Shown piece after piece: positions 31,926 to 37,627 of a stretch of 39,949 bases of DNA. The notes under the pieces are model-generated. The model was not told the origin of the DNA, did not search any database, and was given only the letters and a program-made list of their open reading frames with translations. The position numbers and the translations under genes were made by a program. The DNA is from a virus. How positions within the stretch are numbered: the first letter of the stretch is position 1; each line of letters starts with the position of its first letter. The stretch is from positions 1 to 39,949 of the IMG/VR virus record IMGVR_UViG_3300027608_002035, one strand, 5' to 3'.

Positions 31926-31970
31926 CTACTTACCTCCCTTCCTATATTTGCTTGTCTTCTTAGCAGCCAT
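31926..31970 (-). CDS. Possible 14-aa basic peptide
   Basis: Directly after the DUF6321-like gene an ATG overlaps the stop (TGATG on the minus strand) and encodes MAAKKTSKYRKGGK before TAG. The ribosome site of the next gene (GGGAGG) lies inside its end. Its first residues resemble the start of the upstream protein (MAAKKK), and its charge matches the cassette. It may be a real micro-protein or only a leader that couples translation; the evidence is position alone. Confidence 0.35.
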   Translation of the reverse strand: MAAKKTSKYRKGGK

Positions 31971-32269
31971 CAGCAATCCCAAGCTCGTAATGACTTATTA
32001 ATGCGTGAGTTAGGATCGTTGGCTGTCTTGGCTGAAGTGTTCTTCTTCTTCATGCCTTCCATGCGATCACAGAAAGATTCACGGCGTGCTGCTGACTTCT
32101 CAGACTTAGCTGCCTGTTCCTTTTTTACTGGAGGCTTAAGGTTGCTTCCAGGGTTTTCCTTTTCATAAGACTTGCGACCTTTTTCATTAAGGCCACCCTT
32201 GGGATCTTTACCCTCAGAGCGTGACCAAGCTGCTGTCTTTTTTGCTGGTGCTTTCTTTTTTGCTGCCAT
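31970..32269 (-). CDS. DUF6321-like basic protein (99 aa)
   Basis: This very basic protein has an N-terminal Lys/Ala tail. It then has the phrase AWSRSEGKDPKGGLNEKGRK, ENPGSNLKPPV, and the C-terminal RRESFCDRMEGMKKKNTSAK ending in RINKSLRAWDC. I recall this pattern as the DUF6321 family of phage and bacterial proteins with two conserved cysteines at the FC and WxC positions. Its function is not known; the charge suggests nucleic-acid association. AAGGAG precedes its ATG on the minus strand, 10 bases downstream of the dps stop. The family name is from memory. Confidence 0.75.
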   Translation of the reverse strand: MAAKKKAPAKKTAAWSRSEGKDPKGGLNEKGRKSYEKENPGSNLKPPVKKEQAAKSEKSAARRESFCDRMEGMKKKNTSAKTANDPNSRINKSLRAWDC

Positions 32270-32278
32270 GTTGGCTCC

Positions 32279-32713
32279 TTACTTAGTAGAGGCCCTAAGT
32301 TGCCAGGACCATTTATTGTGGTTGTCAATACGATCTGCAAGAAAGTTCATAATTCCTTGTTCGTCTTTTTTCTGAGCCTCATCAAATGCCTTTTTGAGAG
32401 ATTTAAGAAGATCTTCGTTGGCTACCAATAAAGACTTAGCCATAGCTTTTGGATTTGGCTGTGCGTCTTTAAACTCAAGTGTGCGAAGGTCTAAAAACTT
32501 CTGCAAACTAAAGGGGGCATAGTCATCGAGTTTACGAATGTTCTCGGCAATTGGGTCAATTGACCCATAAGCATCCTCGTAGATATCTGAAAACAAAGAA
32601 TGGTATTGGCTGAAATCTGGACCCTCTACATTCCAATGATAGCCATGGGCCATGAAATAAAAAGTAACTACGTCAGAAACGAGCACTTTAAGGGATTTAA
32701 TAAGTGATTCCAT
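32279..32713 (-). CDS. dps: Dps-like ferritin
   Basis: This 144-aa ferritin-fold protein would form a shell that oxidises and stores iron and can shield DNA from peroxide. The sequence shows the Dps signature YFMAHGYHWNVEGPDFSQYH (residues about 19-38) followed by LFSDIYEDAYGSIDPIAENI. The ferroxidase His, second His, Asp and Glu positions match by spacing; the residue aligned to E. coli Dps Asp67 appears to be Ser with an Asp next to it. The ATG at 32713 is preferred (AGGAG five bases upstream) over an earlier in-frame TTG. It is first in the minus-strand cassette, behind its own promoter and a leader hairpin. Dps genes are occasional phage cargo and here may protect the genome or manage iron. 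Confidence 0.9.
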   Translation of the reverse strand: MESLIKSLKVLVSDVVTFYFMAHGYHWNVEGPDFSQYHSLFSDIYEDAYGSIDPIAENIRKLDDYAPFSLQKFLDLRTLEFKDAQPNPKAMAKSLLVANEDLLKSLKKAFDEAQKKDEQGIMNFLADRIDNHNKWSWQLRASTK

Positions 32714-32730
32714 TACATCTCCTAATAGCA

Positions 32731-32773
32731 AAAGCCAGGGGCTATCAAAGTTTATCTGATAACCCCTGGCTTT
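32731..32773 (-). promoter_or_regulatory. Long hairpin in the dps leader
   Basis: AAAGCCAGGGG (32731-32741) pairs with CCCCTGGCTTT (32763-32773), and after one mismatch TATCA (32743-32747) pairs with TGATA (32757-32761), a 16-bp stem in all. On the minus strand it sits in the 5' leader, eight bases before the dps ribosome site, and is followed by CTTTTGCTATT. It could act as an attenuator, a translational control element or an RNA stabiliser. Confidence 0.7.
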
Positions 32774-32886: not shown

Positions 32887-32895
32887 CAATCACCC

Positions 32896-34152
32896 ATGAC
32901 CACCAACTCTTTTCAGGGGCCATTCTTGGCCATCCCATTATGGGCTGTAGATCTAATCAAGGACTACGGGCAACCTAGGGATCTACAAGTTTTGGTTGGG
33001 TTGGTTGCTTTAATGGACAGGCGTCAGAGGGAAGTGACCGCCTCTGTTCAGCAGATTGCCGACCATGTGGGGGTGTCCAAAGAGACATCCAAAAGATCTC
33101 TTAAGTGGCTTTCTGAATATGGGGTCATTACAACTCGTAGGCGTAAGAACCCCTCTATCAATGTGTACACAGTTCACTACACTGACGCTCAGATGGGGTC
33201 ACGGGTGACCCTAGATGGGGTCATGGGTGACCCTATCAAAGATATAGATGGGGTCACGGGTGACCCTATTGAACTTACAGGGGGGGTCACAGGTGACCCT
33301 AGTGAAACTCCGCAAACCTGCATGGCATATGGGAATGCGGAGGGTTCTATAGAAGTATTAAATATAGAGACACTAGTAATAAAGAAATTAGAGAGGGCCG
33401 CGAGCGGCGCTGGAGATGAAATGATTATTGGAGCAGACCCTGACGATATGAAAACCACCGAAGAACCAAAGGTATCCAAGGCACCACCACGCAAAACAAA
33501 CAGACTTCTTTCTCACTTTGTGAGCAACCGCCAATCAATCATGTCTGCCAATTACAACCAGCGTGATTTGATTATCCTCCGTCGTACTTTTAACTTACTT
33601 ACAGATTCTGGGCTTAACGAATTTACGGTAATGCAAATGATCAACAAGTTTTTATCGGTAGAACGCTGGCGGACCGCGGATAACCCAGCGTTACTTTTTT
33701 GTAGCAAAGAAATCCAAAAACAATTAATGGAGCACATTGAGGTTGCAGTTTCAACGGATGACCCAATCCTTATGCTGATGCTTAACGATTTTGACAGGAC
33801 TGGGATTGAATTACAATGGGATGCTCCCCAAGACAACCTCCTTAAAAAGGCCATAGTTATGCGCGGTACGGACATTTGCTATCGCTATCCTGAAGTTGTT
33901 TCTGCCCTTGCAATGCAGTACAGAGGCGATTTTGGAAATGAGAACTTTGTTAATGGTCTTACTGCGCTAAACTCTTTAGTAAGGTTCATCACAGGTGAAG
34001 AACAGGAAGACCCGACAGCGGCTCTCAATTCGTTACGGGGATTCCCGTTACCAGACGAGCTTTTAAAAATGTCAAAATCACTTCTTCGGTCACCAGCTAG
34101 CTCAATTACCGAAGCGGTATATAACTATCGGAGGCTTTCCAATGGAAAATGA
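32896..34152 (+). CDS. Replication initiator, winged-helix, lambda O-like layout
   Basis: This is a 418-aa protein. Residues about 1-95 hold a winged helix: DLQVLVGLVALMDRRQREVT, then SVQQIADHVGVSKETSKRSL as helix-turn-helix and WLSEYGVITTRRRKN as wing. Residues about 100-135 are a linker encoded by the four palindromic iterons. The C-terminal region (about 195-418) is helical with VERWRTADNPALLFCSKEIQ and may recruit the helicase loader. Gene order (initiator, loader, helicase, primase) and the internal origin-like repeats support the replication role. ATG 32896 fits a leaderless transcript; an upstream in-frame TTG at 32875 lies in front of the -10 box and is rejected. Sequence similarity to lambda O itself is not claimed. 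Confidence 0.8.
   Translation: MTTNSFQGPFLAIPLWAVDLIKDYGQPRDLQVLVGLVALMDRRQREVTASVQQIADHVGVSKETSKRSLKWLSEYGVITTRRRKNPSINVYTVHYTDAQMGSRVTLDGVMGDPIKDIDGVTGDPIELTGGVTGDPSETPQTCMAYGNAEGSIEVLNIETLVIKKLERAASGAGDEMIIGADPDDMKTTEEPKVSKAPPRKTNRLLSHFVSNRQSIMSANYNQRDLIILRRTFNLLTDSGLNEFTVMQMINKFLSVERWRTADNPALLFCSKEIQKQLMEHIEVAVSTDDPILMLMLNDFDRTGIELQWDAPQDNLLKKAIVMRGTDICYRYPEVVSALAMQYRGDFGNENFVNGLTALNSLVRFITGEEQEDPTAALNSLRGFPLPDELLKMSKSLLRSPASSITEAVYNYRRLSNGK
33195..33212 (+). repeat. Iteron 1
   Basis: The unit GGGGTCACGGGTGACCCT contains inverted arms GGGTCAC and GTGACCC around GG. It is read in frame as G-S-R-V-T-L, a different frame from the other three copies. Confidence 0.9.
33217..33234 (+). repeat. 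Iteron 2
   Basis: GGGGTCATGGGTGACCCT has one C-to-T change in the left arm. It starts 22 bp after iteron 1. Confidence 0.9.
33250..33267 (+). repeat. Iteron 3
   Basis: GGGGTCACGGGTGACCCT is identical to iteron 1. It starts 33 bp after iteron 2. Confidence 0.9.
33283..33300 (+). repeat. Iteron 4
   Basis: GGGGTCACAGGTGACCCT has arms intact and one change in the central pair. It starts 33 bp after iteron 3 and is preceded by two extra G bases. Confidence 0.9.
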
Positions 34153-34483
34153 GCCGGAATATACTTTTTTTAAAATTGAAGACATCATCGTGTTTGTTGA
34201 TTGGATCAAAGCCAACTTTGAATCAACAGAAGAGTACAACGATTGGTTTGAATTTTCTTTAGATGAAGAAGTACCCTACGATTTATTCTGTAAACGTCAA
34301 CCCAAAAAAGCAGAACTGTTGCATGAATGCCTACATTGTGGCGCTAAGTTTTCTACGGTTGCTGGTTTAAACGTTCACAACAAGGTTTTACACAAAAACA
34401 AAATGGAAGATGACTTTTGGAAGATCATCAATGAGTCATACAACAAGGAGCCACATGAAACCGAACTACCCGACACCGACTGA
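34142..34483 (+). CDS. C2H2 zinc-finger protein (113 aa)
   Basis: The sequence CLHCGAKFSTVAGLNVHNKV followed by LH gives C63-x2-C66-x12-H79-x4-H84, a textbook C2H2 finger, unusual outside eukaryotes but known in some phages and in Ros/MucR-like bacterial proteins. The N-terminal about 60 residues are acidic and aromatic (VDWIKANFESTEEYNDWFEF). GGAGG at 34130-34134 is the ribosome site, and the start overlaps the initiator gene by 11 nt. The end overlaps the loader gene. The placement suggests a DNA- or protein-binding helper in replication or a regulator; the exact role is unknown. Confidence 0.75.
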   Translation: MENEPEYTFFKIEDIIVFVDWIKANFESTEEYNDWFEFSLDEEVPYDLFCKRQPKKAELLHECLHCGAKFSTVAGLNVHNKVLHKNKMEDDFWKIINESYNKEPHETELPDTD

Positions 34484-35048
34484 TTGGAAGTCAGAAAACT
34501 GGTGGCGTAACCGCACCGCGGACGAACGCTTGTTCCATTCTAAAATTCCACAAAGACTAGCCAGCATTCCAGAGGACGGCATTAAACTAAACACCAGCAT
34601 CATGTCCTGGCTTGATAGTTATGAACCAGGAAGCAGCCTTTACCTTCACGGCAAAACTGGTACTGGTAAAAGCGTTATTGCCCAACACCTTTTAAAGGTG
34701 CTTGTAACAACTCACCCAGCTTCTGGAAGATTTGCTACGGCTGATCGGTACTTAGAAATGCTTAAAGATCAGTTTGACAACGACAACCTTTTACCATCCA
34801 TGTACTCAAGCCCTTACTTGATTAAGTACATCCAAGGAGTCTTTGACATTGTTGTGCTTGATGGGGTTGGGCAAGAACGAGAAACAGAGTTTGCCAACCA
34901 TGAAATTGGGAGTCTTATTCGCAGACGCTACGAAGACATGCGTTCAGTAATTATTACTTCAACTATGCCAATTATGGATTTTACTCGCAGATATGGTGAC
35001 AGGGTTAAAAACGCGGTCATGGAAATGACTGAAATTAAGGTGTCGTAA
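34455..35048 (+). CDS. DnaC-like helicase loader ATPase
   Basis: This is a 197-aa AAA+ protein. Walker A is GKTGTGKS (residues 66-73). Walker B is FDIVVLDGVG, with D136 and Gly in place of the usual second acid. Sensor 1 is VIITSTMP, and an RRYGDRVKNAV sequence near the end suits the arginine-finger region. Such proteins load DnaB-type helicase at an origin. ATG 34455 is chosen because AAGGAG lies at 34445-34450; a longer in-frame start at 34410 has no such site. It lies between initiator and helicase genes, as expected for a lambda P/DnaC role. It may load the phage helicase, the host helicase, or both. Confidence 0.85.
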   Translation: MKPNYPTPTDWKSENWWRNRTADERLFHSKIPQRLASIPEDGIKLNTSIMSWLDSYEPGSSLYLHGKTGTGKSVIAQHLLKVLVTTHPASGRFATADRYLEMLKDQFDNDNLLPSMYSSPYLIKYIQGVFDIVVLDGVGQERETEFANHEIGSLIRRRYEDMRSVIITSTMPIMDFTRRYGDRVKNAVMEMTEIKVS

Positions 35049-35488
35049 TGGAGGGCGGAGACATTGCAATGTTTGGCCGAGCTGGTCAAGCATGCGTGTT
35101 TGAAGGTCTTATTGCATCTCGACCAACTGGTGCTGCTGGAATAAAATCAAAGTTTTACGAACGTAGTAAGGATTGGGATTCAGCTTTAAAACTTTGGAAA
35201 CCTAATGACCTTCCTTTGAAGTCTTTGATTGACGCAGTAAATCGTCTAAACATTTCAACAGAGGTAATCACTTTCTTACCACAAGAAGCCGTTGAACACA
35301 TTTACAAATGGCTTGTTCGTAAAGGTGTAACCCCCGTTGTAGAGCGTTACGAAACTCCAGAAGATTATGAACTTGATTTACGTTATAACAGATCAATCCA
35401 TACTGTGTATGTTGCCGATCAAGAAGTTGCCCGCATTTTAGGAATGCGTGCTACAGTCATTCCCCCAACCACCGCCTGGAGAAACTAA
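35048..35488 (+). CDS. Hypothetical protein in replication operon (146 aa)
   Basis: The sequence is alpha/beta with helices ALKLWKPNDLPLKSLIDAVN and strand EVITFLPQEAVEHIYKWLVR, and ends VYVADQEVARILGMRATVIP. The C-terminal phrase DQEVARILGMRATVIPPTTA looks conserved, but I cannot name the family. It is coupled on both sides (TAATG at start and end), so it is made together with loader and helicase. A role in nucleotide or DNA metabolism is possible only by context. Confidence 0.65.
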   Translation: MEGGDIAMFGRAGQACVFEGLIASRPTGAAGIKSKFYERSKDWDSALKLWKPNDLPLKSLIDAVNRLNISTEVITFLPQEAVEHIYKWLVRKGVTPVVERYETPEDYELDLRYNRSIHTVYVADQEVARILGMRATVIPPTTAWRN

Positions 35489-36741
35489 TGGCATCTAGTG
35501 AACTTCACTTAATTTCTAAAGTAATTCAAGACAAGGATGTCACAGTCCCAGTTCGTGCTGGCGTAAAGCCGGATCACATGTCTGGAGAATGGTCTGGCAT
35601 TTGGCAATGGATACTTGAGTTTTACCGCACGCATGGTGCGGTACCTACTGAACGCGTATTTGTACAAGAGCATGGTGCTATTTCGTTGTACGACTCAACG
35701 GACGAAAGTTACTCAAGGCTTATTGAAGAGATCTTTGACGCTTACAGAAAGCGTTGCGTTATGGATGCTCTTCAACCAGCAATTTCATTCTTAAACGCTG
35801 ATGATATTTCTGCCGCAGTTGCCTCACTCTCCGCTGGCCTACAGAAAGCGGCAGTTGAAACAGCGCGTCTTCGCGACATTGACATTATTCAAAACTGGGA
35901 AAATCGTCTTGTACGTTATGAAGAAATGCGTCTTCAACCAAACGCTCTTCGTGGTATCCCAACTGGTTTTTATGGTCTTGATAAAATCACCCATGGATTA
36001 CGACCCCAACAGTTTGTTGTGTTTGCTGGAGAACCAAAGCGTGGTAAATCTTTGTTTGCTTTGATCCTTGCCAACTCAGCACACGTTCATGGTAAGCGAC
36101 CCCTCTTTGTTTCATTTGAAATGAGCATTGAAGAGCAAGAAGCTCGCTATGACTCTTTAATTGCCAAAGTTCCGTATGATCGTATTTTGTCTGGTGACCT
36201 AGACGCCAAGGACATGGCCAAGATTAAAAAAGCGTTGTCGTTACGAAAGAACATGCAACCCTTTGTCTTTAGCGAAGACACCTCATCTCTTACAACAGTT
36301 AGCGCACTTGCTAGCAAAGTTCAAGAGTATTCACCAGACGTGTTGTTTGTTGACGGCGTGTATTTGATGGACGATGAGGAGGGTGAAGCCAAAGGAAGCC
36401 CACAAGCATTGACCAACATTACGCGTGCGTTAAAACGTATGGCTCAACGCTTTGACATTCCCGTGGTTGCAACCACTCAAGTGTTGTCATGGAAACTACA
36501 GAATCGCAAGACTCGTGCAGTTACTGCTGACGCAATTGGTTACACCTCTTCATTTGCCCAAGACGCTGACCTGATCCTTGGTGTAGAGCGCAACCCAGAC
36601 ATGGATGACCAAGCGATCATTAGAGTTGTGCTAGCGCGTACAGCACCTACTGGTGAAGTTCATGTTAAGTGGGACTGGAAGACAATGGAGTTTGAGGAGG
36701 TTATGGGAGATGAGCACAGCATTGACCCCTCAATTGACTGA
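35488..36741 (+). CDS. Replicative DNA helicase, DnaB-like
   Basis: In this 417-aa protein the N-terminal helical domain (HLISKVIQDKDVT start) is followed by a RecA-type core opening with GIPTGFYGLDKITHGLRPQQ. Walker A is GEPKRGKS (residues 181-188). Next come FVSFEMSIEEQEARY, a second core motif SPDVLFVDGVYLMDD (Walker B D289), and the C-terminal phrases VVATTQVLSW and ADLILGVERNPD. This is the F4 helicase order, with a Gly-Lys-Ser loop slightly off the GxxxxGKT consensus. It probably forms a hexamer at the fork, loaded by the DnaC-like protein. It is coupled to the preceding gene by TAATG and overlaps the primase gene by 32 nt. Confidence 0.9.
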   Translation: MASSELHLISKVIQDKDVTVPVRAGVKPDHMSGEWSGIWQWILEFYRTHGAVPTERVFVQEHGAISLYDSTDESYSRLIEEIFDAYRKRCVMDALQPAISFLNADDISAAVASLSAGLQKAAVETARLRDIDIIQNWENRLVRYEEMRLQPNALRGIPTGFYGLDKITHGLRPQQFVVFAGEPKRGKSLFALILANSAHVHGKRPLFVSFEMSIEEQEARYDSLIAKVPYDRILSGDLDAKDMAKIKKALSLRKNMQPFVFSEDTSSLTTVSALASKVQEYSPDVLFVDGVYLMDDEEGEAKGSPQALTNITRALKRMAQRFDIPVVATTQVLSWKLQNRKTRAVTADAIGYTSSFAQDADLILGVERNPDMDDQAIIRVVLARTAPTGEVHVKWDWKTMEFEEVMGDEHSIDPSID

Positions 36742-37627
36742 CCTAACCCTGGTGCTAGAAACCGCAGGGGTAGAACTATCGCGTATTAGCGAAAGGGAGA
36801 TAACTGGAAAATGCCCAGTTCACCTTAGGGTTGTAGGTAAGGAAGACAGGTCACCATCATGGAGCATGAACGCCACTAGTGGTTTATGGATTTGCTTTTC
36901 ATGCGGAGCTAGAGGAACTTTGTCAAGCCTCTTGTATGAGCTGTGTGGAGATACCGCAGCATCTGCGCAACAGTTTTTAATTAACGCTGGCGCAGAAAGG
37001 TTGTATGCACCTAAGAAACAAGAAGTAGCACAGCCTCAATTACGCACCGACGCTTTCTTTGGGTTTGACAGAGTTTCAGATAAACGTTGTGCCACCAAAG
37101 ATCTAGACCCAGATTTGGTTTATCGTTACGGAGTTCGTTGGAACCCTAACAATAGAAGCTGGGCTATTCCTATAATTTCCCCGATGGGGCAACTGATGGG
37201 GTGGCAAGAAAAAAAGACAGACTGGGTACGCAACTTTCCCGTAGGTGTAGAGAAAGCAAAAACACTATTTGGCGCTGAACGATTTAGGAACCGTACAGCC
37301 ATACTCGTAGAGTCTCCATTAGACGTCGTTAGGTTTGCTATGGTATTTAGTAAACCTCAAGCAGTTGCTTCTTTTGGAGCACAAGTATCTAAAGAACAGA
37401 TGAACCTTTTGACCCACATGGCCGACACTGTAATCATTGCAATGGATAATGACGTTGCTGGTATTGAATCTAGTAAAAAGCTATACAAGTTTATGGGTAG
37501 GCCACGCAAGGGTTTAAAGTGGTGGAATTACCAAGGCACTAGCGCCAAAGACATTGGTGACATGACCAATGATGAAATAGAGGCAGGCCTTACCACATCA
37601 ACTGTAGTACCCCCCTGGATGTTATGA
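36710..37627 (+). CDS. DNA primase, DnaG-like
   Basis: This is a 305-aa primase. The N-terminal zinc site is CPVH (C35, H38) with CFSC (C62, C65). The Toprim core has AILVESPLDVVRF (E201) and VIIAMDNDVAG (D246, D248), the acidic residues that bind catalytic magnesium. It is shorter than bacterial DnaG and lacks a clear helicase-binding C-terminal domain. ATG 36710 is chosen because GGAGG (36696-36700) is 9 bases upstream. The first 32 nt overlap the helicase, tying their expression. The last bases overlap the SNF2 gene as ATGA. The domain order zinc finger, linker, Toprim is clear; the template-binding part in between is inferred. Confidence 0.9.
   Translation: MSTALTPQLTDLTLVLETAGVELSRISEREITGKCPVHLRVVGKEDRSPSWSMNATSGLWICFSCGARGTLSSLLYELCGDTAASAQQFLINAGAERLYAPKKQEVAQPQLRTDAFFGFDRVSDKRCATKDLDPDLVYRYGVRWNPNNRSWAIPIISPMGQLMGWQEKKTDWVRNFPVGVEKAKTLFGAERFRNRTAILVESPLDVVRFAMVFSKPQAVASFGAQVSKEQMNLLTHMADTVIIAMDNDVAGIESSKKLYKFMGRPRKGLKWWNYQGTSAKDIGDMTNDEIEAGLTTSTVVPPWML

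Follow-up and report, generated by a model that had tools for sequence, protein, structure and literature searches.

Palindromic iterons within a replication initiator gene mark a probable lambda-type origin in a family of uncultured phages

In the replication origin of phage lambda, four iterons of 18 bp lie in the middle of gene O and are joined to an AT-rich sequence of 38 bp (PMC3349717, PMC7466680), and the lambda iteron is described in the literature as an imperfect inverted repeat of 19 bp. As computed from the annotated lambda record, the iterons of O are spaced by 20, 24, and 23 and fall in codon phases 0, 2, 2, and 1, while the 40 nt of O that are richest in A+T begin 3 nt past iteron 4. 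The Stx phages P27 and 933W have the same anatomy as the lambda origin, with six iterons. In Arthrobacter phage Bolt007, a winged helix-turn-helix (wHTH) protein named as a “RepA-like replication initiator” is followed by a helicase loader. Iterons inside an initiator gene are also a property of origins of the type found on the Streptomyces linear plasmid pSLA2, where a helicase gene adjoins the initiator gene and the origins have been called phage-like. Apart from the lambda work, no paper on an origin or iterons within an initiator gene turned up in the literature searched.

The locus described here lies in a window, by which we mean the whole stretch of viral DNA that was analyzed (39,949 nucleotides, IMG/VR record IMGVR_UViG_3300027608_002035). 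A 16-bp palindrome, GGGTCA-N4-TGACCC, occurs in it four times, starting at positions 33196, 33218, 33251, and 33284, with start-to-start steps of 22, 33, and 33 bp, and all four copies lie inside a phage initiator gene on the + strand that encodes 418 aa (32896–34152, ATG at 32896). From sequence comparison, these repeats are very probably the initiator-binding iterons of a lambda-type replication origin situated within the gene for the initiator itself, where it encodes a linker. With the lambda origin (ITN1-4) the locus shares inverted-repeat iterons of 16–19 bp in the middle of the gene, an AT-rich tract downstream of them, and a helicase-loading gene next in order. It differs from lambda in the sequence of its iterons, in their spacing on a grid of 11 bp, and in their more perfect palindrome, which has arms of 6+6, whereas the annotated lambda 18-mers, paired end to end, have only 2–4 symmetric pairs of 9. 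In addition, a DnaC-like loader, a DnaB, and a primase are all encoded by the window phage, while lambda uses P together with the host DnaB. Kinship with the lambda O protein is suggested by PHROG O-like and initiator models, which match mainly the wHTH, and by the general layout, and the Pfam family of lambda O was not among the matches of the 25 family members analyzed below. That the locus would work like the lambda origin is well supported, with binding and origin activity being predicted properties. Its likeness to the pSLA2-type origins is one of general description, and the window protein has no match among the plasmids in PLSDB. The Bolt007 initiator is 36% identical over the winged helix to the product of a distant palindrome-bearing locus (L032), and its gene contains no such palindrome array, only a 24-nt repeat in two copies.

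The assignment of the initiator gene comes from PHROG, Pfam, and AlphaFold2. The window protein matches the PHROG families “replication initiation protein” (1.7e-11) and “replication initiation O-like” (1.4e-6), the latter over residues 44–201, mainly the wHTH, and Pfam places in it a Crp-like HTH just below the curated cut-off. An AlphaFold2 model (25 family members, mean pLDDT 72.5) consists of a winged helix at residues ~9–99 and a helical domain at residues 199–418, both of them predicted confidently, which are joined by a disordered linker at residues 100–197 with a pLDDT of 30–49. The stretch that encodes this linker contains all the iterons, as well as the AT-rich tract and an inverted repeat that follows the tract. 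Downstream on the same strand are genes for a DnaC-like helicase loader (34455–35048, PHROG 1.1e-20), a DnaB-like replicative helicase (35488–36741, Pfam DnaB_C 1.2e-36, PHROG 6.6e-65), and a DNA primase (36653–37627, Pfam Toprim_2 1.1e-9, PHROG 9.3e-32), and the order loader, DnaB, primase is conserved 3′ of the initiator gene in those relatives that have enough flanking DNA. A gene for an SNF2-type helicase is also found downstream of the initiator in the window.

On the other side of the initiator gene, a ferritin-like (Dps-type) gene (32279–32731, − strand, 2e-16) adjoins a DUF6321 gene (31970–32269, − strand), and both run opposite to the phage genes around them, diverging from the initiator gene. 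Upstream of the initiator, where the Dps-type gene starts, there is a 17-nt inverted repeat, AAAGCCAGGGGCTATCA / TGATAACCCCTGGCTTT, with the two halves 9 nt apart (32731–32773). In six relatives (L045, L046, L048, L055, L057, and L058) a TGTACAGT-like sequence recurs ~10–20 nt before the ATG of the initiator gene, with little or no Shine-Dalgarno sequence, and this may be the −10 element of a leaderless transcript.

Iteron 1 (33196–33211, GGGTCACGGGTGACCC), iteron 2 (33218–33233, GGGTCATGGGTGACCC), iteron 3 (33251–33266, GGGTCACGGGTGACCC), and iteron 4 (33284–33299, GGGTCACAGGTGACCC) are all given on the + strand. In the peptide encoded across them (..MGSRVTLDGVMGDPIKDIDGVTGDPIELTGGVTGDPSE..), iteron 1 is read in codon phase 0, as GSRVTL, and the other three are read in phase 1, iteron 2 as GVMGDP and iterons 3 and 4 as GVTGDP. 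A preliminary description of this DNA had noted that iterons 1 and 2 are 22 bp apart, such that copy 1 encodes GSRVTL and copies 2–4 encode GV(M/T)GDP; both the sequence and its translation confirm this, and the coordinates given there, 33195–33234, are correct to within one base. With up to three mismatches allowed, the 16-mer has eight matches in the whole window, which are the same four sites on both strands, compared with an expectation of 0.14 and a maximum of two in 100 shuffles. When the codons of the window gene were shuffled synonymously, a mean of 0.4 and a maximum of three sites were obtained, against the four observed. An inverse match of 12 bp at 32890–32901 was considered as a fifth site, an operator close to the start codon, and was rejected, as it overlaps the start-codon context and a comparable site is found in no relative.

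Relatives were collected in two ways. A pattern search for two of the palindromes in tandem gave 29 viral contigs, most of them with homologous initiator genes bearing the sites. The search was repeated free of the motif, by protein alignment alone, and gave 68 loci, which together with the window form 29 clusters at 95% nucleotide identity; as the query alignment included members found by the motif, each new locus is motif-independent and the seeds are not wholly so. The full-length, non-redundant set used for most comparisons has 25 genes, the window and 24 relatives whose proteins are 25–70% identical to that of the window. The ORFs assigned to two loci, L027 and L028, are not homologous and were excluded from use, and a third locus (L029), whose ORF has no blastp match either, is cited only for its sites. 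The window protein has no relative in annotated phages, plasmids (PLSDB), or bacterial species genomes and contigs.

All 25 full-length genes contain three or four copies of the iteron at the same place, just after the winged helix, with variant arms in two of them (L089 and L056). Codon phase 0 accounts for 36 of the 86 iterons in these genes, phase 1 for 49, and phase 2 for a single one, and reading in phase 2 would put a TGA stop within the palindrome of 83 of the 86 site sequences. The sole phase-2 iteron (GGGTCACGGAAGACCC, in L079) has the T of this TGA replaced, giving AGA instead, and the same escape from the stop is seen in two of the more distant loci (GGGTCACCCACGACCC in L024 and GGGTCATGGGTGCGCC in L029). 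Each of the 25 genes has iterons in both of the stop-free frames, and eleven different arrangements of spacing and frame are seen among them. The clearest switch concerns iteron 3, which is read as GVTGDP in the window and as GSRVTL, in phase 0, in the closest relative (L006/L045), whose protein is 70% identical. In some genes the two arms of the site are altered jointly and the palindrome is kept, as in GTGTCA..TGACAC (L089 and L111) and AGGTCA..TGACCT (L056), and in the remaining arm variants one arm only is changed. Such paired changes are as expected of a site that would be bound by a symmetric dimer.

The preliminary description had argued from the frame difference that selection acts on the DNA itself, with a binding site as its object rather than a repetitive linker, and had named high synonymous divergence in the repeats as the outcome that would contradict this. 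The opposite was found. Synonymous identity was taken as the fraction of identical codons where two relatives encode the same residue, in five bins of rising protein identity, and it is 0.84/0.86/0.93/0.79/0.96 in iteron codons and 0.34/0.38/0.43/0.49/0.71 outside them, so that the proposed comparison of the repeats with the rest of the gene is clearly positive (0.79–0.96 vs. 0.34–0.71). This comparison is partly circular, since the iterons are defined by the motif, and a motif-blind sliding scan of eight codons served as the control. Against a mean of 0.41 for the gene (s.d. 0.14), the top windows of the scan (0.81–0.93) start at codons 98–105, with one at codon 124, and a second group (0.72–0.78) starts at codons 147–152, on the AT-rich tract (peak ~147–170). 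The constraint extends beyond the repeats to the AT-rich tract. Synonymous shuffles within each gene leave 0.01–1.25 sites on average, compared with the three or four observed, in all but two genes, which have variant arms. The iterons are retained nearly letter for letter while being read in different frames and, therefore, the DNA itself is under selection, a claim that the synonymous test, the motif-blind scan, and the frame switching all support. The frame argument itself is decisive across the relatives and weak from the window alone, where one slipped duplication could suffice. Lambda iterons cross frames too, and the frame difference noted in the preliminary description is a usual property of such origins.

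In a comparison of window positions 34142–36741 with the relatives, the DnaB of the window is 65–89% identical to those of the full-length relatives, compared with 25–70% for the initiator. Judged from these sequences, the initiator is evolving much faster than the helicase, while its presumed binding site hardly changes.

The start-to-start distances between iterons in the 25 genes are confined to 22, 23, 33, 34, 44, and 45 bp, that is, 11n or 11n+1, and they do not go in steps of three, as they would under a codon periodicity. The more distant palindrome-bearing loci add spacings of 24, 25, 32, and 46. A step of about one helical turn suggests that bound dimers would have to lie on a defined face of the DNA helix, with 11 being slightly more than 10.5 bp per turn. 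Several relatives have a 45-bp gap that lacks the middle copy, which counts against the origin reading, and a search of these gaps for a hidden middle iteron gave matches at background level, except in L089 (8 of 12 positions). In two relatives with such a gap (L057 and L058) another short palindrome (CCCCAAATAGGGG / CCCCAAACAGGGG) is found at the place of the missing iteron. Sequences of 9 nt that resemble DnaA boxes (TGTGGATAA, TTATCCACA, and TTATACACA) lie beside or between iterons in four relatives (gene offset 323 in L048/L055, 238 in L046, and 278 in L080), and in L048/L055 the 9-mer falls in the 45-bp gap, at the place of an iteron in other genes. The window gene contains no such 9-mer. 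Involvement of host DnaA in those relatives is possible.

The AT-rich tract of the window gene (33348–33387, + strand), a probable DNA unwinding element, is 80% A+T, more than any other 40-nt stretch of the gene. The corresponding A+T maximum begins 23–53 nt past the last iteron in each of the 25 genes; for a randomly placed tract, the chance of lying within 60 nt is about 5% per gene. By eye, units like TAGARRTACTAAA, poor in C on the + strand, seem to recur in 33348–33396 and its counterparts in relatives, and these could be ordered repeats for unwinding or loading. Directly after the AT-rich tract is a G+C-rich inverted repeat (33397–33408, + strand, GCCGCGAGCGGC), and at the same place most relatives have one of other sequence, such as GCCGCAAGCGGC, GGCCGATGGCC, or CCCTGCGGG, or longer hairpins. 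Taken alone, the folding is weak as evidence (z −1.5 for the hairpin by itself), and the 81-nt region has a z of −2.1. GC skew gave no clear turning point or origin signal at the iteron site.

Just beyond the inverted repeat is a candidate internal translation start (33412–33423, + strand), which consists of GGAG at 33412–33415 and an in-frame ATG at 33421 (Met176). This residue is Met in all 25 representatives, and the Shine-Dalgarno match before it has a mean of 5.1 nt, compared with 2.5 nt at 294 other Met codons, and is at least 5 nt in 72% of members, compared with 9% of the other Met codons. Synonymous shuffles show that this match is mostly accounted for by the encoded Gly, Glu, and Asp residues. 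It is a tentative and rather unlikely proposal that two products come from the gene, the complete initiator and a form with the C-terminal part only, through which the helicase machinery would be contacted, and that, with the 11-bp grid, this makes for a compact and frame-tolerant origin. Plasmid initiators that occur in two forms, such as TrfA, offer a parallel to the putative short form starting at Met176, and we know of no compact, frame-tolerant origin design of this sort that has been described for phages.

How the origin would operate can be outlined from these features, and we infer the binding, melting, and loading steps from lambda and from the anatomy of the locus. The gene that contains the iterons probably encodes the protein that binds them specifically. 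Its winged helix would bind each of the palindromes, probably in dimeric form, such that either GGGTCA arm is contacted by one subunit. A number of these dimers, aligned at intervals of ~11 bp × n, would jointly strain the AT-rich tract at 33348–33387 until it melts, whereupon the C-terminal domain and the DnaC-like loader would load the DnaB helicase of the phage onto the single strand and synthesis would then be started by the primase of the phage.

Other roles for the palindromes can be envisaged. They could have no origin function and act as operators at which the winged-helix protein shuts down its own expression; the protein does have a Crp/ArsR-like winged helix, and palindromes close to the gene for the protein that binds them are typical of autoregulation. 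The palindromes are, however, ~300 nt inside the gene, relatives have no comparable site within 250 nt upstream of the start (the best match 7–9 of 12 positions), and autoregulation leaves unexplained both the fixed position of the AT-rich tract and the synonymous conservation of that tract, such that we regard operators without an origin as improbable. The two roles could coexist, as an initiator bound within its own gene may block transcription. Still less probable is that the prophage is plasmid-like and that the wHTH protein binds the repeats as a centromere-like partition site. This would fit with the presence of small wHTH centromere-binding proteins (TubR and the pNOB8 protein) among the weak sequence or fold matches, but no gene for a partition ATPase or GTPase was recognized nearby, the conserved neighbors being those for the helicase loader, DnaB, and primase, and an AT-rich melting tract is not a feature of partition.

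The least credible of the alternatives is that duplication produced nothing more than a repetitive linker in the protein and that a single copy slipped, which would account for the frame difference. In favor of this, the linker is disordered and tolerant of repeats, and copies 2–4 of the window share a frame at 33-bp steps. Among the relatives, however, the synonymous positions are frozen and homologous copies switch frame, the encoded peptides are not conserved, and the spacings do not keep to multiples of three.

The probable origin in the initiator gene is a member of an unannotated new family of an already known kind. For an uncultured group of phages that spans 29 clusters at 95% nucleotide identity, and for which no earlier origin assignment was found, the analysis provides a predicted origin, initiator, and iteron. 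It also provides a rule by which such origins may be recognized in metagenomes, namely a gene for a wHTH initiator containing palindromes that are frozen at synonymous positions, that change frame between relatives, and that lie beside the AT-richest stretch of the gene. The natural arrangements, with spacings of 22, 23, 33, 34, 44, and 45, constitute a set of variants for how initiator dimers must sit to melt DNA.
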